IMG/VR virus record: IMGVR_UViG_3300047387_000127
Span: 1 to 25,775 of that record
Direction: 5' to 3' (one strand)
Source: a virus
Length of the DNA stretch: 25,775 nt
Shown: piece by piece, positions 5,609 to 14,096 of the stretch
Numbering within the stretch: position 1 is the stretch's first letter
Layout: the number at the start of each line of letters is the position of its first letter
The notes under the pieces: generated by a model
Seen by the model: only the letters and a program-made list of their open reading frames with translations
The model's database searches: none
What the model was told of the DNA's origin: nothing
Position numbers and translations under genes: made by a program

Positions 5609-7495
5609 TTATGCACCCAGTGCGTCGAGCATTGCGGCAAACGACTTAGGACGGCGAACACCACCGTCATAGTAGGTGTTAGCAACCAAGGTGTGCAAGC
5701 CGGTCTTGGCGTTAGCACTGTCGCGGAGAAGCTCAAGGTTCAGTCCGCCCCAGTAGCCAATTACATAGTCAGCGAAGTTACCAAAGAAGATTGCAGATGC
5801 AACTGATGAACTTCCTTTGGTCAATGTGCGGCTAACTGCGTTAGTGAACTCAGCGCGGTATCCGTTAATGGTGTTTGGGCTTCCATCAGAGATGATGAAG
5901 TTGCCTTCAACTCCAGAAGCTTGCTTGCTGGTCTGCTTGAGTTTCGCACGAATTTGGCCGTTTGTAACATAAGCAAGTCCACCTTGCAGAGCATTCTGAG
6001 CGTCAACCTTCTCTTCAAGAGAAACGATGTCAGCATAGTCAGGAGCGGCTCCGTGCGTTCCACCAATTACGTCACCAATTCCAGAAGCATCAGCAACGCC
6101 GTTCGCTTCGTTGGTTCCACCGCCGTGGAAAAATGCTTTTTCCTGAGTCTCAAGCATTTGAGCAGTCAAGTGTCCGCGAAGCATTGCTTCAATTGCGGAA
6201 GAGGACTGTGCCAAAAGCTGGTCACTGATGTCGATAAATGCAGGAAGTCGCTTAGGAGTAAGGCTCAACTGTGCAGTAGTTGGGCTGACTTCGTCGGCTG
6301 CTGCGTTCTCGGCCTTTTTAGCGGCTGCTGTTCCGGCTGCAAGAATCGGAATGTCAAGGTTGCCGCTAAGTCCGGTGAGAACAGTAGCACCAAGCTGATT
6401 CATTACTGAAGAAGCGAAGAAGTCATCAAGAAGCCCAGCTTTATCAGTTGCAACAGTGTGGCCGCCTTGGTTGGCAGTTCCAGCAGTCATGTCACGCTTG
6501 TTAACGTAGAACGAAGGAAGCATAATACCGCGAGATTGACCAATGCCAGCGTTCTTAGCTTCGCGAATTCCTTCTTCAACAACTTCACGCTCTGCACCTT
6601 CCAGTTTAGCACCGGAGTAGTGAGCGCGAAGGGCGGCACCAAGGTCAAAACGGCCTAAATCACGCTTTTCAGACTTGGAAAGGTCGGCTGGGACAAACTC
6701 AGCTTTCTTTTCGCAAACCTTATCAAAAGCGGCCTGACGGAAATCGTCAGCAGATACACCTTCAGCAACAGCTTTGCTTACATCAAGGCTGATGCCGCGC
6801 TCTTTAGCTTGCTCGGCTACTGCTTGAATGCTTGCGATGCGGCTACGCTCGGCAGAGACAGCACTGTGACGCTCGGCGTTGATGTCAACACGGGGAGCTT
6901 CGTTAATTACCTCCACGGAGCGTTGCTCGGGAGCCGATGTGATGTCGTTATTTTCGGACATATTTTCAGTTTTTAAATTTTGGGTTTCCGTTTGTTCGTT
7001 TTTCATCGCCCTGCCGACACCAACGGAGTCATCTGCGGGGATGCTTACCAAGCTAAGTTCAAACGGCTCCCAATCAGTCGCGCGGATAGACTCCCGTCCT
7101 CCGTCTAACTTCTCAGAATCCATATCGTAAATGCGATAGCCAACCGAAACCAATCGGCGAATGCCATCTTTTACGTCTTGGAAAATCTCTTCGGCTCTTG
7201 CCGACTTTGAAAACTTAACGACCGCGCGACCCTTTTTGTCGTCATCAATCCATGCTCTCTCTACAACACCAATCTGGTCGTTGCGGTTGTGTTCCATCAG
7301 GAAAGCACCGCCGTTGTTTAGACGGTCAAGGCGAACGCTTTTAGAGCGGTGGTCTAGCACTTCGGTGCCATAACCGCGCTCTACTTCAGCTTCAGAAGAA
7401 AACGCAATTTCAATTGTGCGGTCGTCTTCGTTAATAGCCCGTTGATTTAATTCAAAGGAGCGGTGTGATAGTTCTTCAACCTTCTTCTGGCTCAT
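5609..7495 (-). CDS. Prohead protease fused to HK97-fold major capsid protein
   Basis: The 628-residue protein has two parts. Residues 1 to about 165 match the HK97-type prohead protease (peptidase S78): FLMEHN with His69, and WEPFELSLVSIPADD with likely catalytic Ser148. After a linker and a helical, charged delta-domain-like region (about 200-300), the rest has the look of an HK97-fold capsid protein (GATVLTGLSGNLDIPIL, RLPAFIDISDQLL, AFFHGGGTNEANG). Fused protease-capsid genes are known in some phages; self-cleavage is expected to release the capsid subunit. The ATG at 7495 overlaps the portal gene by 20 bases. A TTG at 7516 is an alternative start. A strong terminator follows. Confidence 0.9.
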   Translation of the reverse strand: MSQKKVEELSHRSFELNQRAINEDDRTIEIAFSSEAEVERGYGTEVLDHRSKSVRLDRLNNGGAFLMEHNRNDQIGVVERAWIDDDKKGRAVVKFSKSARAEEIFQDVKDGIRRLVSVGYRIYDMDSEKLDGGRESIRATDWEPFELSLVSIPADDSVGVGRAMKNEQTETQNLKTENMSENNDITSAPEQRSVEVINEAPRVDINAERHSAVSAERSRIASIQAVAEQAKERGISLDVSKAVAEGVSADDFRQAAFDKVCEKKAEFVPADLSKSEKRDLGRFDLGAALRAHYSGAKLEGAEREVVEEGIREAKNAGIGQSRGIMLPSFYVNKRDMTAGTANQGGHTVATDKAGLLDDFFASSVMNQLGATVLTGLSGNLDIPILAAGTAAAKKAENAAADEVSPTTAQLSLTPKRLPAFIDISDQLLAQSSSAIEAMLRGHLTAQMLETQEKAFFHGGGTNEANGVADASGIGDVIGGTHGAAPDYADIVSLEEKVDAQNALQGGLAYVTNGQIRAKLKQTSKQASGVEGNFIISDGSPNTINGYRAEFTNAVSRTLTKGSSSVASAIFFGNFADYVIGYWGGLNLELLRDSANAKTGLHTLVANTYYDGGVRRPKSFAAMLDALGA

Positions 7496-8915
7496 CGACA
7501 ATCTCAGAATTGTCAATTTGGTCAGGGTCTAATTTTAAGCCATAGCTTGCAGCAAGTTCTTCATCTTCTTTAACCTTCGCAAGAACGTCATAGATGTCAT
7601 CCCCGGCATCAGCAATAATGTCACGAAGTGGCCTGATGCGGTTACGCATTGCAAGGACAGCGGCTTCCATGTCTTTCTTGGGGTCAACCCAAGCCCATCG
7701 GCGTCCCCGAAATTCTGGGGCGTTGAATTTAAAGAACTTATCGAATGGCAAACCAAGGCGACCAGAAAGAAGCTCGACTTCAAGCCATGCTTCAAAAACT
7801 GGCTCAAGAACGTGGTCAATCATCATGCGTTGGACTGCCTTCCAAACTTCGCGCTCTTCAATCAACCCGGCGCGGATGCTTGAATAGTTTACTCCCTCCA
7901 AATCATTTGAAAGAGCATTGTAAGAAATGCCAAGAGAAGTAGCAACTCCGCGCAGGCATGATTTAACGAAATCTCCATAGCCTGAATTTGGGTGGTTGGT
8001 ATCCCAGCTTTTGAAGTCAACTCCTGCAGGTAGCTCTTCAATTGTGCCGGGCGACGAATCAACAGGAAGATTTCCGTCATCATCAATTTCACCCGTCCAC
8101 CCGTCTGGTGTTGCTTTGGTGAAAAAGCCCATTTTAGCGGCCCCGGTTCTAGCTGCAACAAGTTCGGCTTCTGCATAGCCGTCTAACATCTTGAGCCTGT
8201 TCATTGAGCTTACAAGCCAAGGGATGCCCCGGCTTTGCTCTGGTCGCTCTGTTTTAAACGGGTGAATGATTTCTTCGGCTGGCACCCGGATTCTTCGCTT
8301 AAAATCAGCGTTGAATTGAGAATCTCCGGGATGGTTGCCAAGCAAGTGGTAAGCAACTGGTCGGCGGTATGAATCAAACTCAACACCAAACCGGATTTCG
8401 TTACCGTTGTCAGCCCGGGCGTTGTAGCTATCGTCTAAAAGGTCGGCTTCAAGAATCTGTAAGCATAAGCCAGTGCTTTTCTTAATCATTCGAATCAGCA
8501 CCTCACCATCACGTGCAATGCATCGAAGGATTAAGCGTTGCACGTCAATCCATGAGTGGCGTCCTGTAACTTCACAGTTGCCAACTTTGCTCCATTGCTT
8601 CCAAGCCCGCTCAATTATATTGTTGGCGATTTCGTCAAGCTGTCCATTAGCTTCTTTTGCCCTTACCTGTAAAGATACACCTTTTTCTCCAAGTGTGTTG
8701 TTCTCAAGGCTACGCAAGAAACCTTTTACCCATTCATTATTTCGCTCCAAGTCACGCGAACGGTCACGAAGAATTGGAAGCTGCCCTTTGAGCTCACCAT
8801 CTTGCGACAGGCAGGCAGTAATCCAGTCGAGCGTCAAACGGCTTGACTGGGTGGCGTTGAATCTGCGAACGGCTGTTTTTGGCGGCGAGAATTTGCGCTT
8901 TAGGTATTGAATCAT
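7476..8915 (-). CDS. Portal protein, lambda type
   Basis: The 479-residue protein forms the dodecameric portal ring through which DNA enters the head. It resembles the lambda portal family: RDRSRDLERNNEWVKGFLRS near residue 50, the WI/RDGEVLIRM segment, EIIHPFKTERPEQSRGIPW, and GVDFKSWDTNHPNSGYGDFV followed by SLGISYNALSNDL. Length is typical for the family. Its ATG overlaps the stop of the gpW-like gene (ATGA), and it sits between that gene and the protease-capsid fusion, the standard order. Confidence 0.92.
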   Translation of the reverse strand: MIQYLKRKFSPPKTAVRRFNATQSSRLTLDWITACLSQDGELKGQLPILRDRSRDLERNNEWVKGFLRSLENNTLGEKGVSLQVRAKEANGQLDEIANNIIERAWKQWSKVGNCEVTGRHSWIDVQRLILRCIARDGEVLIRMIKKSTGLCLQILEADLLDDSYNARADNGNEIRFGVEFDSYRRPVAYHLLGNHPGDSQFNADFKRRIRVPAEEIIHPFKTERPEQSRGIPWLVSSMNRLKMLDGYAEAELVAARTGAAKMGFFTKATPDGWTGEIDDDGNLPVDSSPGTIEELPAGVDFKSWDTNHPNSGYGDFVKSCLRGVATSLGISYNALSNDLEGVNYSSIRAGLIEEREVWKAVQRMMIDHVLEPVFEAWLEVELLSGRLGLPFDKFFKFNAPEFRGRRWAWVDPKKDMEAAVLAMRNRIRPLRDIIADAGDDIYDVLAKVKEDEELAASYGLKLDPDQIDNSEIVDEPEEG

Positions 8916-9177: not shown

Positions 9178-11004
9178 CTACCAATCATTCACCCACCCGC
9201 CTTTTTTTCCACGGGCATTCTTTTTTGGTTTGGCGGCTTTTTTCTTAGGCGGGTCTTGAATGGTTTTCTTTAGTTTGTTCCAGTTAACTCGCATCAATGA
9301 TAATGCGGCAGTTGCATAAACTCGGATGTCAAGAGCTTCGTTTCGTGCTTTGCTAGGATTCTCAAAACGTGTAAATGGCACACCATTTTTGTAGCGAGTC
9401 ACTTTTGTTTCACTTGTTAATTGACGAAACCAATTTTCTTGTCGATCGTTTGGAAAATGCATAAAACCCGATCCTTTTTCACCTAAGGAAAGTCGTGAAT
9501 ATGTCAACTCTTTAGCTGTATCTGTCCCAATGCTAAATAATGCTGCTTTGTCTACACCCCTTCTTGTTGGTCTTCCAAGTAATGGCACACCCGGACCTCC
9601 AACACCTTTACAAGCATAAACACGTCTTGTTTCGCGAGGTTTCGTAAAAGCGTAAACAGCTTTTGTTTTGTGTCCTGAGTCAATAAAAACACAACTTATA
9701 AAAAGCTCCGCACCGCTTGGATGTATAAATTTCTTTTGCAAAATTTCATCAAGTGCGGCATGTGTTTCTGGTATATTAAAATCTCCCATAACACAATGGT
9801 ATTCAATGCTCCATGATTCCTCACCTTCTCCCCAGCCTACAATTTCAACCTCAAATCTATCGCCTTGAATGTCAACGCCAGCGGTCAAAATAAGAGCATT
9901 TTTAGGAAAATCACCCCAATCTTCCCGCCGTTGCATTAATGGTTCCCACGCAACTTGTTCTCCTTCATCTTCCCACGTCTCTGCCAAAAACGTATTTATC
10001 CACGTCCTAAGCGACTCTTTTCCTGCTTTTTTAGCTTTAATGTTTTCCGATGCCATTTGATGCAATCTAGAAACAAAACCTTTTTTATGACGAAAAAGTG
10101 AAGCAATGCCCGGTAAATGATAACCTTTCAATGTCCTTTCTGGATATGTTGCAATCCATTTACCTTTTTTAACCATTTCAATGCGATTTTCATCGGTTAG
10201 GTGCTCGTCGCATCCTTCACATTGTAACCAAGCATCACTCCCGTCGTCGGCTTTCCATTTAACATTCACCCATTTTAAAGTTTGCGCATATTCACATTTT
10301 GGGCAATTAACGAAAAATCTACGCTGATCGCTGGCTTCGAATTCAGTTTCAACACGACTTCTTCCTTTTACGGTAGGGGTAGATGTCATAACCACAACTG
10401 CATTCCAAAATGTTTCTGTTCGGCGTATAGCCAAGCTTGATGGGTCACCTTCACTTCCAGCCGTTACCGGGTAGCGATCAACTTCATCAAGCAAAACAAC
10501 CCGCCTTGGACGTGACGCCAATCCAGCCGGAGCATTAGCTCCAGCAATTGCCAAATTGCCGCCCGGAAATGTTTTGTGCAATATTGTGTTACCGCTAGTT
10601 CGCGATTTTACATCTGCAATCTTGTCTTTGATTCTTGGCGTGTCCCGGCACATTGGTGCAAGTCGCTCTTTACTCCACGCTTCACCCATCTCAATCGTCG
10701 GTTGAACCATTAAAATTGGTGCTGGCTCAATATCAACAAAATATCCAATCATGTTATTCAAAACCTCAGTTTTGCCAAGTTGAGCCCCTACCATTAACAC
10801 CGTCCCGGTTGCTTGCGGATCGTTAATTGAGTTCATCCACTCCCTTGCATAAGGAGTTACCGTTGATGAGTATTTACCGGGCTGACCTGATGATTCTGGT
10901 GACAAATAACGATAACTGTCAGCCCATTCAGAAACAGTTACCCTAGGAGGTGGCTCAAAAACATTAAGCCACGATTCAACTATTTTGGTAATTTCATATT
11001 TCAT
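9178..11004 (-). CDS. terL: Terminase large subunit, gpA type
   Basis: The 608-residue packaging motor and nuclease belongs to the lambda gpA-like family. Visible features in order are a Walker A-like MVGAQLGKTE (about 71-80), a Walker B VVLLDEVDR (about 169-177), a TSTP coupling motif (about 207-210), and a zinc-binding pair CPKC (234-237) and CEGC (262-265). The nuclease domain opens with TAGVDIQGDRFEVEIVGWG and proposed metal ligand Asp378. A Lys-rich C-terminus ends the protein. Length is normal for the family. It overlaps the small subunit by 11 bases, confirming the pair. Confidence 0.95.
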   Translation of the reverse strand: MKYEITKIVESWLNVFEPPPRVTVSEWADSYRYLSPESSGQPGKYSSTVTPYAREWMNSINDPQATGTVLMVGAQLGKTEVLNNMIGYFVDIEPAPILMVQPTIEMGEAWSKERLAPMCRDTPRIKDKIADVKSRTSGNTILHKTFPGGNLAIAGANAPAGLASRPRRVVLLDEVDRYPVTAGSEGDPSSLAIRRTETFWNAVVVMTSTPTVKGRSRVETEFEASDQRRFFVNCPKCEYAQTLKWVNVKWKADDGSDAWLQCEGCDEHLTDENRIEMVKKGKWIATYPERTLKGYHLPGIASLFRHKKGFVSRLHQMASENIKAKKAGKESLRTWINTFLAETWEDEGEQVAWEPLMQRREDWGDFPKNALILTAGVDIQGDRFEVEIVGWGEGEESWSIEYHCVMGDFNIPETHAALDEILQKKFIHPSGAELFISCVFIDSGHKTKAVYAFTKPRETRRVYACKGVGGPGVPLLGRPTRRGVDKAALFSIGTDTAKELTYSRLSLGEKGSGFMHFPNDRQENWFRQLTSETKVTRYKNGVPFTRFENPSKARNEALDIRVYATAALSLMRVNWNKLKKTIQDPPKKKAAKPKKNARGKKGGWVNDW

Positions 11005-11458
11005 TTAATTTGCTTTTCAGCCTTAGTAAATTTTTTAGACATTTATCTTTAGCTTCCTCTGTTATTTTATCATTTAAAATGGAATTTTTAACAATAGCCA
11101 TTATTTCTTCTCCAGCTTTAATAACTTCATTTTTTTCAATTAAATCTCCTCTTGTTTTAGCGTTGGCCAATTCTAATTTATCAGCCTCTTCTTTAGTTCG
11201 TCGCAATTGGTGTTTTTTTAATTCCGTAGGATTTTCAGACTCATTGTCCCACTGATTAACCTTTCTTTCTTGTAAGTATTCAATGTAATTAGAAATAGAA
11301 GACCATAAATCATATCTACCTCTTCCGGTCCTAATTACAATCCCATCAGAAGCAAGTTGTTGAATTCTGACACTAGTTAAATTAAATAATTTAGCTAAAG
11401 AAGATACAGGAACTGATGGATTTTTTCCTTTTGGATTTAATGGCTTTTTTTCGCTCAT
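10994..11458 (-). CDS. terS: Terminase small subunit, Nu1-like
   Basis: The 154-residue protein has an N-terminal winged-helix-like DNA-binding region (VSSLAKLFNLTSVRIQQLAS, about residues 18-37) and IRTGRGRYDLWSSI after it. A middle and C-terminal helical oligomerisation region with QLRRTKEEADKLELANAKT, typical of lambda gpNu1-type small terminases, completes it. Such proteins recognise the packaging site and recruit the large subunit. It overlaps the upstream glycosyltransferase-like gene by four bases and the large terminase by 11. It shares the AT-rich composition of the upstream pair rather than of the terminase. Confidence 0.85.
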   Translation of the reverse strand: MSEKKPLNPKGKNPSVPVSSLAKLFNLTSVRIQQLASDGIVIRTGRGRYDLWSSISNYIEYLQERKVNQWDNESENPTELKKHQLRRTKEEADKLELANAKTRGDLIEKNEVIKAGEEIMAIVKNSILNDKITEEAKDKCLKNLLRLKSKLNEI

Positions 11459-12315
11459 TTCTTTTTGTGGTGTTCATCCAATATTTTAGGAATTGCGTTT
11501 TTCCATGAAATCTTGTGATGGATACGATTCATGCGAGGCAGATATGTCGCTTTGGCAAATGAAGGATTAATAATCACTGAATAAAATGATTTTACATAAG
11601 TGCCGCTTTCCAGATAAGCATCAGACATTCCTCCTGCATTTGATTGTGTTTGTTTTTGATTTAAAGCAACTTCTGGAATAGAAAAAAAGATGTCTCCTTT
11701 TTTGCCTAATTCTAGATAGGTATTAACATCCTCGTTTAATCGACTAAAAAACCAAAACCTTTTTTCTGTACTGCAAAAAAATGAATTCATTGCTTTTCTT
11801 CTTTTAAAAGGAAAAGGTTGACTGACTAAAGCCAATACTCCACCAATAAGATCACCACCTTGAATAAAGCAAACGGATTTAACTCGATCATCAACATTTA
11901 GAAAATTTAAACAAATTTCACAAAGTTTATCGAAATCTTGAACATAGGATCTTACAAAATTCCCTTTTTTATCAAAGTTATGACGAAATGCTGTATAATC
12001 ATCATCAAGGACTAAAAAATATTTATATCCTAATTTCTCGGCAAAATCAAAGCAAGCATTTCTTGCATGAGTTGTTGTTCTTCTGTTTTCAAAGTTGTCA
12101 CAACTGTCGATTTTATTTGCATATTTTAGCTTATCAAAAACAAGAATCTTTTTTTTCCCGTAGTTTTTTTGATATTCTTTGATTTTTTCGTCTTCGTTAT
12201 CACATACAATATATGTCTCTCCAGTATAATTGCATCCCTTTAAAGTTTTAAGAGTAACAATTGAATCTGGACGACCGTGGCTAATTACAAAAATACAAAA
12301 TTCATTAAGCTTCAT
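11455..12315 (-). CDS. TET-associated glycosyltransferase-like (TAGT) DNA-modification enzyme
   Basis: The 286-residue protein resembles phage TAGT enzymes, GT-A-fold transferases that add sugars to oxidised or hydroxymethylated bases in DNA. Visible motifs: N-terminal FVISHGRPDSIVTLKTL (about 9-25), ETYIVCDNED (33-42), VFDK (59-62), THARNACFDFAEKLGYKYF (82-100), and the metal/nucleotide-sugar motif LVLDDDY (101-107, DDD at 104-106). The start MKLNEFCIFVIS is preferred over an upstream start that would overlap the ParB gene more. It lies between a ParB-like protein and the small terminase and is unusually AT-rich. No TET/JBP oxygenase is in this window, so the substrate base is unknown. Confidence 0.75.
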   Translation of the reverse strand: MKLNEFCIFVISHGRPDSIVTLKTLKGCNYTGETYIVCDNEDEKIKEYQKNYGKKKILVFDKLKYANKIDSCDNFENRRTTTHARNACFDFAEKLGYKYFLVLDDDYTAFRHNFDKKGNFVRSYVQDFDKLCEICLNFLNVDDRVKSVCFIQGGDLIGGVLALVSQPFPFKRRKAMNSFFCSTEKRFWFFSRLNEDVNTYLELGKKGDIFFSIPEVALNQKQTQSNAGGMSDAYLESGTYVKSFYSVIINPSFAKATYLPRMNRIHHKISWKNAIPKILDEHHKKK

Positions 12316-13099
12316 CGTCTTCTTCTGTAAGTATTTGTTCAACATCTTCCTTCAGCTTTAAATAACCTAATTGCATCGCTTTTTGAAAATCAATAACAAC
12401 AAGAGCTGAATCTTCCATTAGTTCTTGTGTCTCTTTGTTCATGTGACAGTAAAACTCGGCAATTTTTTCGTAATTAAATGTCAGATGACGATTTGCAGCC
12501 TCAAGTAAGAAATTTTGAATATCAGGATCAATATTTGCTTTTTTAATCTTATCAGCAAGCAGTTCGGTTCTTTCTTTGTCTACAAGTTCGGAAATCTTAG
12601 GTTTTTCTCCTTTTGGTTCATAAACAGGGGTATCAATTTTATGCGTGTATTCATCACTTAATGTTGATTCCTCAGTTTCTGGATTTAAAAATGCTTCAAT
12701 TTCATCAGCATCAAATCCCGTCAGATTTAAATCAAAATCAATTTCCCTCAAATCGGTTAACTCAATTGCTAAAAGTTCTTCATCCCATCCTGCATTTAAG
12801 GCTAATTTGTTGTCGGCAATGACGTAAGCTCTTTTTTGTGTTTCTGTTAAATGACCTAAACGAATACATGGCACTTTTCCAAATTTAAGTTTTCTGGCTG
12901 CCAAAACTCTACCGTGGCCAGCAATAATATCGTTGTCGTTTCCGATCAATACAGGATTGGTAAAACCAAACTCCAAAATGCTTGCAGCTATTTGCGCCAC
13001 TTGATCTTCGGAGTGTGTCCTGCTGTTTTTAGCGTAAGGAATTAAGCAGTCTAAATCGACCAATTCAATCGCATCTGGTTGGTGTTTTTTGTTTTTCAT
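12305..13099 (-). CDS. ParB/Srx-fold protein linked to DNA modification and packaging
   Basis: The 264-residue protein carries a ParB N-terminal domain: LIPYAKNSRTHSEDQVAQIA (about 19-38), GFTNPVLIGNDNDIIAGHGR (45-64), then VPCIRLGHLTETQKRAYVIA (76-95). Many phage relatives are fused to a methyltransferase; here the C-terminal half instead has helices of unknown type (LLADKIKKANIDPDIQNFLL and onward) and an acidic end. ParB domains use CTP or act as nuclease-like modules, and they recur beside phage base-modification and terminase genes. The ATG at 13099 is preferred over a TTG six bases upstream. The gene overlaps the glycosyltransferase-like gene by 11 bases. Confidence 0.8.
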   Translation of the reverse strand: MKNKKHQPDAIELVDLDCLIPYAKNSRTHSEDQVAQIAASILEFGFTNPVLIGNDNDIIAGHGRVLAARKLKFGKVPCIRLGHLTETQKRAYVIADNKLALNAGWDEELLAIELTDLREIDFDLNLTGFDADEIEAFLNPETEESTLSDEYTHKIDTPVYEPKGEKPKISELVDKERTELLADKIKKANIDPDIQNFLLEAANRHLTFNYEKIAEFYCHMNKETQELMEDSALVVIDFQKAMQLGYLKLKEDVEQILTEEDDEA

Positions 13100-13148
13100 T
13101 TTCAAAAATAAAATGGCATTTAAAAAAAGTTTTGCCTAGAAAAATGTC

Positions 13149-13241
13149 TCAATGACTGATGACTGCAGGTAAGATACCTCCAGAAGGAACCACGTTAACG
13201 CCAGACGCCCTAGGATCATTTCCTAGAGCGTTTTGGATGTT
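13149..13241 (-). pseudogene. Possible remnant reading frame in an intergenic gap
   Basis: In the roughly 200-base gap between 13099 and 13299, a 30-codon frame without a usual start ends in TGA and reads QNALGNDPRASGVNVVPSGG, followed by ILPAVISH. It looks protein-like, and its GC content is clearly higher than its AT-rich flanks. It contains the arms of the hairpin at 13206-13230. It may be the tail of a gene lost by deletion, or chance coding in a structured RNA. Confidence 0.25.
13206..13230 (-). other. Stable hairpin upstream of the ParB-like gene
   Basis: On the minus strand CGCTCTAGGA pairs with TCCTAGGGCG around the loop AATGA, giving ten pairs with one G-U. On the plus strand the same position is a C-A mismatch, so the structure fits minus-strand RNA better. 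No U-tract follows on that strand, so it is not a classic terminator. A smaller hairpin (TACCT/AGGTA arms, 13167-13179) lies downstream in the same leader. Function is unknown. Confidence 0.4.
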
Positions 13242-13298
13242 TTATTGGGATTTTTATTTTTATTATATGACACGACTTAAAGCGCGGCGTGTGTTGTT

Positions 13299-13604
13299 TT
13301 ATGCTTCATTTTTAATTTCCACAAATAATTTAATGGGTTTCCATTCTTCTAATGCTCGCCCTTTATTACCAATATCAGCTTGTTTAATATACTGTCTAAC
13401 TAATATGCAATTGTCTTCATTTGCTTCCGCGCCAGTCATTATCTTTTTCTCGCCAGTTGGTTCATCTGAAAAATGCTTTTCAAAAATATGATTAGAATTT
13501 AAATATTGCTTCCATTTTTTTTGTTTCTTAATGCCTTTTAATCTACCTATGTAATCCTTTTCAGAATTTGACCATGCTTTTGCTAATGGGTTTATTTGTC
13601 TCAT
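13299..13604 (-). CDS. Hypothetical small protein
   Basis: The 101-residue protein starts MRQINPLAKAWSNSEKDY. Its N-terminal half is basic (GRLKGIKKQKKWKQYL) and its C-terminal half mixed and acidic. No recognised motif, membrane segment or signal peptide. It is the last gene of a cluster of small unknown genes, and its ATG overlaps the preceding stop by four bases (ATGA), supporting it as a real gene. The sequence is AT-rich like its neighbours. Confidence 0.55.
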   Translation of the reverse strand: MRQINPLAKAWSNSEKDYIGRLKGIKKQKKWKQYLNSNHIFEKHFSDEPTGEKKIMTGAEANEDNCILVRQYIKQADIGNKGRALEEWKPIKLFVEIKNEA

Positions 13605-13849
13605 AGCTTTGATTTCACACTGTTAATTGCTTGTGTAAGGTTATCTTTCCAAATATAAGGAAAATAATCTGTTTGAATGTCAGGATAATCATGTTTCATT
13701 CTAATTGAAATGCTTTGAATTTCTCCATCGTGTTGGCTAAATTCAATTACCCAGTTACTTTCTTTGATTTCTGCTTGGTATCTCCATTCGCTTTTTTTTA
13801 CTTTAAACCCCGTTCTTTGAAGTTTTTTAAGTGCATTTTGTAGTTTCAT
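13601..13849 (-). CDS. Hypothetical small protein
   Basis: The 82-residue protein starts MKLQNALKKLQRTGFKV. It reads as a helix followed by alternating strands (YQAEIKESNWVIEFSQ; IQSISIRMKHDY) and a C-terminal helix, a compact alpha/beta layout. It contains several aromatic residues but no catalytic signature I recognise. The overlap with the next gene (ATGA) supports translation. Function unknown. Confidence 0.55.
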   Translation of the reverse strand: MKLQNALKKLQRTGFKVKKSEWRYQAEIKESNWVIEFSQHDGEIQSISIRMKHDYPDIQTDYFPYIWKDNLTQAINSVKSKL

Positions 13850-13855
13850 CTCTAT

Positions 13856-13885
13856 TTGCTTTTACTTGCTTTTACTTGCTTTTAA
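13856..13885. repeat. Three 10-bp direct repeats
   Basis: TTGCTTTTAC is repeated three times (13856-13865, 13866-13875, 13876-13885, the last ending AA). The repeats span the stop codon of the 74-residue gene and the leader of the next gene. On the minus strand each unit supplies an A-rich AAAAGCAA segment like the one just before the start at 14096, so the array may be duplicated translation-leader sequence or replication slippage. Confidence 0.8.
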
Positions 13886-14096
13886 GTGCATCTAATTCGT
13901 TGACATAATGTTTACGTATGACGCGCGCGTATCCATGTAAAATATGCCAATCTGTTTCATATATGACTTTTCTATCGTCTACAATTTGAGCTTTAAACTC
14001 AACATCTCCACGTGGTCTGCCGCCTTTAATGATAACACCTAAGTCGTTAATGCGGGGATGATTTTTTAGCGTATCTGGTAATTTGTATAGTTTCAT
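13872..14096 (-). CDS. Hypothetical small protein
   Basis: The 74-residue protein starts MKLYKLPDTLKNHPRIND. It includes GGRPRGDVEFKAQIVDD (about residues 25-41) and ends with a helix (YVNELDALKSK). It is charged, with no membrane segment. It is separated from the upstream RHH gene by a perfect stem-loop. No family was recognised. The start is preceded by TAAAAAGCA without a Shine-Dalgarno sequence. Confidence 0.55.
   Translation of the reverse strand: MKLYKLPDTLKNHPRINDLGVIIKGGRPRGDVEFKAQIVDDRKVIYETDWHILHGYARVIRKHYVNELDALKSK

Follow-up and report, generated by a model that had tools for sequence, protein, structure and literature searches.

We read the locus described here, with moderate confidence, as a two-gene DNA glycosyltransferase module with an exchangeable tether. 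The window, meaning the whole stretch of DNA analysed, comprises all 25,775 bases of the IMG/VR virus record IMGVR_UViG_3300047387_000127 and is probably a fragment of a larger genome. It encodes a glycosyltransferase of the TAGT family next to a protein in which a ParB/Srx domain precedes an unnamed domain, here called CTD. The TAGT family was already known; what appears to be new, judging from sequence comparisons, is that CTD and TAGT form an obligate pair and that the CTD can carry a clamp-type motif in place of ParB.

The genes for ParB and TAGT that were named in the original prediction were recovered with exactly matching coordinates and lie, with those for the small and large terminase subunits, on the minus strand (Table 1). 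The overlaps claimed between ParB and TAGT (11 bases) and between TAGT and the small terminase gene (4 bases) also hold, and the two terminase genes overlap by a further 11 bases. The ParB reading frame runs from an ATG at 13099 to a TAA at 12305, with an alternative TTG start at 13105. That of TAGT runs from an ATG at 12315 (MKLNEF..., 286 residues) to a TGA at 11455, and an in-frame ATG upstream at 12345 would give 296 residues; the small terminase gene starts at 11458. Downstream of the terminases are genes for a portal and a protease-capsid fusion, which places the cassette among the late genes of an ordinary tailed phage. The fusion (5609-7516) is a single 635-residue protein joining a prohead protease (S78) to a major capsid domain. 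The G+C content is 31-34% at 11000-14000, which takes in the cassette and its immediate upstream genes, compared with 39-51% elsewhere in the window, and this dip suggests a separately acquired block.

Table 1. Features of the module and the adjoining terminase genes in the window.
Feature	Position	Strand	Length and basis
ParB/Srx-CTD fusion, first gene of the module	12305..13099	-	264 aa; ORF, phrog_620 (E = 5e-62), AlphaFold model (mean pLDDT 88)
ParB/sulfiredoxin-fold domain with AGHGR motif	12686..13066	-	residues ~14-140 of the 266-aa ORF; Foldseek
CTD, unnamed mainly helical domain	12356..12649	-	~100-115 aa, residues ~153-250; alignment of relatives
TAGT-family GT-A glycosyltransferase	11455..12315	-	286 aa; PF20691, phrog_842, structure model
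TAGT DDD motif (DxD, expected metal/nucleotide-sugar site)	11998..12006	-	D114-D116 invariant in 53 sequences
TAGT ED motif (candidate catalytic acid/base pair)	11728..11733	-	E205-D206 invariant in 53 sequences
Small terminase subunit	10994..11458	-	phrog_57 (E = 1e-19)
Large terminase subunit, GpA type	9178..11004	-	PF05876 (E = 7e-83), PF20454 (E = 4e-83)

The assignment of the 286-residue protein to the TAGT family is firm, as it matches PF20691 with 115.2 bits (curated cut-off 27.5; E = 5e-33) and phrog_842 with E = 3e-60, and the HGRP, HARN and LVLDDDY motifs that had been read in it are all present. Residues R25 (HGRP), R95 (HARN), D114-D116 (LVLDDDY) and E205-D206, numbered on the 296-residue reading frame, are invariant in 53 TAGT relatives; by analogy with GT2/GT-A enzymes, E205-D206 may be the acid/base pair. 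A structure model built from the 53 relatives (mean pLDDT 86, pTM 0.87) matches GT-A enzymes such as glucosyl-3-phosphoglycerate synthase and SpsA at 8-15% identity. These matches are generic to the GT-A fold, with no specific cell-surface glycosyltransferase family prominent among them, and a search of PDB sequences with TAGT gave no matches. The fold and the invariant motifs support a predicted active enzyme and say nothing about its acceptor. Neither TAGT nor the ParB gene is a chance reading frame.

The original prediction had paired TAGT with a ParB protein. The protein stands as the partner and the ParB domain does not, as the conserved part is the CTD, a domain of about 115 residues that lies behind ParB. 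The gene before TAGT matches the window's ParB protein in all 93 related records with upstream DNA (L021 and L027, in which the sequence starts within or at TAGT, are outside this count), and in many of these relatives the match covers only the final ~115 residues, the ParB domain is absent and the partner is about 131 residues long. ParB as the invariant partner was rejected, since it is missing from about one third of the dereplicated modules, which retain the CTD. The CTD has the consensus YTxKIxxPxYEP...AAxRHxVFNYEKIADYYAHASKEMQELMExSALVIIDFxKAIxxGYVKL, with 28 invariant columns in its alignment. It has no credible match in Pfam or NCBIfam, and a search of PDB sequences gave weak, unconvincing matches and no convincing solved relative. 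A scan with a CTD-only query, together with the earlier loci, yielded 170 CTD reading frames, every one of them with TAGT directly downstream (169 by script and L172 from its annotation), a count in which exceptions could be missed because sampling covered the closest relatives and neighbours of TAGT supplied the CTD profile. The two genes overlap in 167 of 169 cases.

The pair is present in phages of Escherichia, Lactobacillus, Vibrio, Nocardia and Porphyromonas and of the archaeon Haloarcula. TAGTs were few overall in surveys of prokaryote classes, where loci with a strong TAGT match have the CTD upstream; two weaker loci above the cut-off (L181 and L185) have no CTD and do not match our own TAGT profile. 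The distant TAGTs of Aeromonas phage 65 and Vibrio phage 1.124.O have no adjoining CTD by profile. The idea that the CTD is itself a hidden handle-making hydroxylase is disfavoured, as the Porphyromonas member does not have the domain's sole conserved histidine and a 2-His-1-carboxylate pattern is not conserved.

Several variants of the module were also observed. One phage contig carries two tandem CTD-TAGT pairs (L162:5962-8472), and five records (L045, L051 and L087-L089) have two TAGTs for a single CTD. A radical-SAM gene, which may encode a further modification step, follows the TAGT gene or genes in four records (L088:10880-11836, L089:10854-11813, L173:5865-6827 and L090:7883-8866). A P-loop-like N-terminal extension (MIYIF/IVGxSCxGK) with weak Pfam support, reminiscent of kinases in other hypermodification routes, is found on the TAGT at L090:6498-7901 and on the ParB-CTD protein at L049:13089-14384. 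The gene after TAGT at L137:7379-8230 is by our reading PAPS-reductase/nucleotide-alpha-hydrolase-like, with no Pfam match.

Dereplicated modules fall into two forms, with the CTD fused to ParB in 60 and standalone in 28 (two broken loci were excluded later). Standalone CTDs mostly start with MKQxxLF; near the N-terminus, 21 of the 28 have Q..[LMI]F and 27 have LF or MF, while the Q is absent in seven and L168 is without any such motif. An N-terminal QxxLF occurs in none of 58 ParB-fused CTDs, one of which has QEWLF within ParB, and the background rate of QxxLF is 3 in 1154 genes. Q-L-x-L-F is the experimentally established clamp-binding consensus of bacteria (PMC4549789), and the QxxLF of standalone CTDs looks like a predicted docking peptide for the sliding clamp. 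The window protein is missing this peptide and carries ParB instead.

The two forms also differ in their neighbourhoods. Standalone modules commonly lie near genes for DNA polymerase A, DnaB, primase/helicase, the clamp and SSB, with a sliding (beta) clamp gene directly after TAGT in L045 and L085, whereas the neighbours of ParB-fused modules are terminases. Where the downstream DNA was long enough to tell, 45 of 46 ParB-fused and 2 of 21 standalone modules are followed by a large terminase gene. The predicted terminase linkage thus applies only to the ParB-fused form, and a rule that the module always lies beside the terminase was rejected for the standalone form. Phage L049 has both, a ParB form directly before the terminase and, about 3.5 kb upstream, a QLRLF form at ~9.6-10.9 kb. 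On the TAGT tree, ParB and the clamp-type motif were exchanged about seven times on the best tree, and since the well-supported branches require just two of these changes, the association's Fisher value of 2e-13 exaggerates independence; a test on independent pairs found two supported pairs, too few for significance. The association is strong in counts, with few sure events behind it. Clamp tethering is known for a proven DNA glucosyltransferase, the T4 alpha-GT, which is bound to the clamp gp45 (PMC13216743); this enzyme has a GT-B fold and binds the clamp directly, whereas in the CTD family the predicted tether is on the separate CTD protein.

The ParB domain that had been claimed for the window's partner protein was borne out by phrog_620 and by matches to the ParB fold; the Pfam ParB_N score is 20.8 bits, under the gathering cut-off of 26.3. 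Foldseek matched the N-terminal part of the model to Noc, ParB and KorB (29 matches at E ≤ 1e-3, the best being Noc at 9e-7) and more weakly to free serine kinase and sulfiredoxin, so that Foldseek and phrog_620 together place the domain in the ParB/Srx superfamily by its ParB/sulfiredoxin fold. No HTH profile matched the protein, which has the helical CTD in that place. Fusions of a ParB domain to a DNA methyltransferase are frequent in phages, and a 2025 study describes the role of ParB beside these enzymes as unexplained (PMC12783734). The ParB domains of such fusions are up to 65% identical to that of the window, and the fusion in phage P8625 lies shortly before the terminase, as does the ParB-CTD gene of the window, in which the CTD and a separate TAGT gene replace the methyltransferase domain. 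The Dpd system similarly combines a ParB/Srx protein, the ParB-like ATPase DpdB, which assists DNA base exchange, with a DNA base-modifying enzyme, DpdA (PMC12839542), although the chemistry of that enzyme differs from that of the TAGT module. In Pasteurella phage Pmp13 (L177:3995-5640), a ParB domain overlaps a gene for an ABC-type ATPase-GNAT acetyltransferase just before the terminase, and this could possibly be another DNA modification enzyme delivered by ParB.

In the module that we propose, TAGT would attach a sugar to phage DNA, the CTD would bind TAGT and serve as an adaptor, and the cargo of the CTD would set where TAGT works. The ParB/Srx cargo of the window phage, encoded beside the terminase, would have DNA modified late, at or before packaging, and the QxxLF cargo of other phages would dock on the sliding clamp as the DNA is replicated. 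Candidate acceptors are an ordinary base, a base handle of host origin, and a handle produced by an enzyme that is encoded elsewhere in the genome and escaped recognition. The purpose is likely protection against host nucleases or the marking of DNA for packaging. DNA is favoured as the substrate because both tethers are DNA-related, because the T4 alpha-GT binds its clamp, and because of the methyltransferase fusions of ParB and the part of DpdB in base exchange noted above. A hypermodification cassette, as originally predicted, is still the best reading of the locus, with DNA as substrate argued from context and with the CTD rather than ParB as the partner.

The near absence of known handle makers counts against this tethered DNA glycosyltransferase. 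The window was said to contain no TET, methyltransferase or hydroxymethylase gene, which is true for the proteins scanned. Among 50 related records, complete genomes included, Tet_JBP and a C5-methyltransferase were found in one record each, and a thymidylate-synthase-like (dCMP) hydroxymethylase in none, in a search that detected its positive control; the dCMP hydroxymethylase was found in T6. The Tet_JBP record is L072, with the match at G040:C1:4240-4668 on the same contig as TAGT and a standalone CTD of the QVNLF type. Among 28 records, N6/N4 methyltransferases were found in five and 2OG-FeII_Oxy_6 in none, the latter with a profile that matched no positive control either. The complete or near-complete genomes of Lactobacillus phage c5, jlb1, HHTV-2 and Nocardia phage NTR1 have neither TET nor a thymidylate-synthase-like hydroxymethylase, and the larger Vibrio phage pv27, which has the pair, carries a thymidylate-synthase-family gene that may be an ordinary thymidylate synthase. 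The Pfam TAGT model is common to the window's enzyme and to TET-associated and J-base/GREB1-type glycosyltransferases, and the E. coli relative is named ‘GREB1-related protein’ in RefSeq. The TET/JBP linkage behind the family's name is thus found in just one of the 50 window relatives, and most of this TAGT group is not TET-associated. Several phages (e.g., NC_019449 and NC_021340) carry the label beta-glucosyl-HMC-alpha-glucosyltransferase through phrog_842, which is unsupported since these genomes of the TAGT group show no HMC pathway. A tentative possibility is that glycosylation needs no handle, in which case CTD-TAGT would act directly on an ordinary or host-methylated base and the ParB or clamp tether would choose between packaging- and replication-time modification.

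The same survey bears on the classical route, in which TAGT glycosylates a hydroxymethyl-pyrimidine as in T6 and TET phages, the handle maker lies outside the 25.8-kb fragment and the CTD is an accessory. The ggt enzyme of T2/T6, the beta-glucosyl-HMC-alpha-glucosyltransferase, belongs to the same family as the window's enzyme (PF20691, phrog_842), and in T6 it adds a second glucose onto alpha-glucosyl-HMC (PMC13216743); the window is an incomplete record, and L072 shows that a TET/JBP gene can share a contig with TAGT. However, T6 ggt lies between uvsX and the dCMP hydroxymethylase gene with no adjoining CTD gene annotated, whereas the window module has a CTD partner and no known hydroxymethylase or first glucosyltransferase, and c5, jlb1, HHTV-2 and NTR1 lack both kinds of maker. 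We consider this route unlikely.

A target other than DNA, either a protein (ParB, terminase, portal or capsid) or a polymer of the host surface, for example for superinfection exclusion, with a regulatory role for the ParB partner, seems quite unlikely. The generic GT-A matches do include protein and wall enzymes (GalNAc-T, TarP), and the E. coli prophage pair adjoins the moron-like gene trkG, but both forms of the module have DNA-related partners (ParB or the clamp-type motif), their neighbours are replication or packaging genes, and DNA modification is proven for members of the family such as T6 ggt. Very improbable is a packaging or partition device centred on ParB, with TAGT a non-catalytic or site-specific helper marking a cos/pac or parS-like site: the ParB-fused form is nearly always directly before the terminase, the ParB gene of phage c5 starts ~80 bases from the cos site and the upstream gene of NTR1 begins at base 3, yet standalone CTD-TAGT pairs occur without ParB and usually without an adjoining terminase, and the catalytic motifs of TAGT are invariant.

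The tethered DNA glycosyltransferase that we prefer has relatives in a tractable host. The E. coli pair, 43-52% identical to the window's proteins, lies between trkG and the terminase in Rac-like prophages, and at least 80% of the two-gene stretch is present in 863 of 5,426 complete E. coli genomes (~16%), which makes testing in laboratory strains possible. In K-12-derived strains the stretch is reduced to ynaK, a stump comprising its first 254 bases. The intact ynaK of the strain inspected (L178:6001-6792) is annotated in RefSeq as a partial gene despite an open reading frame of 263 residues, perhaps because the K-12 stump serves as the reference. In a 2026 study, 288 of 753 glycosyltransferase-bearing phage genomes have TAGT without an alpha- or beta-glucosyltransferase, described there as potentially novel transferases (PMC13216743). 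The present comparison indicates that a large TAGT group has an obligate partner domain of its own, the CTD, and that ParB probably tethers modification enzymes to DNA, as it is exchanged on the CTD for a seemingly clamp-docking peptide. The functions of orphan TAGTs, and of ParB beside modification enzymes, thereby become testable.
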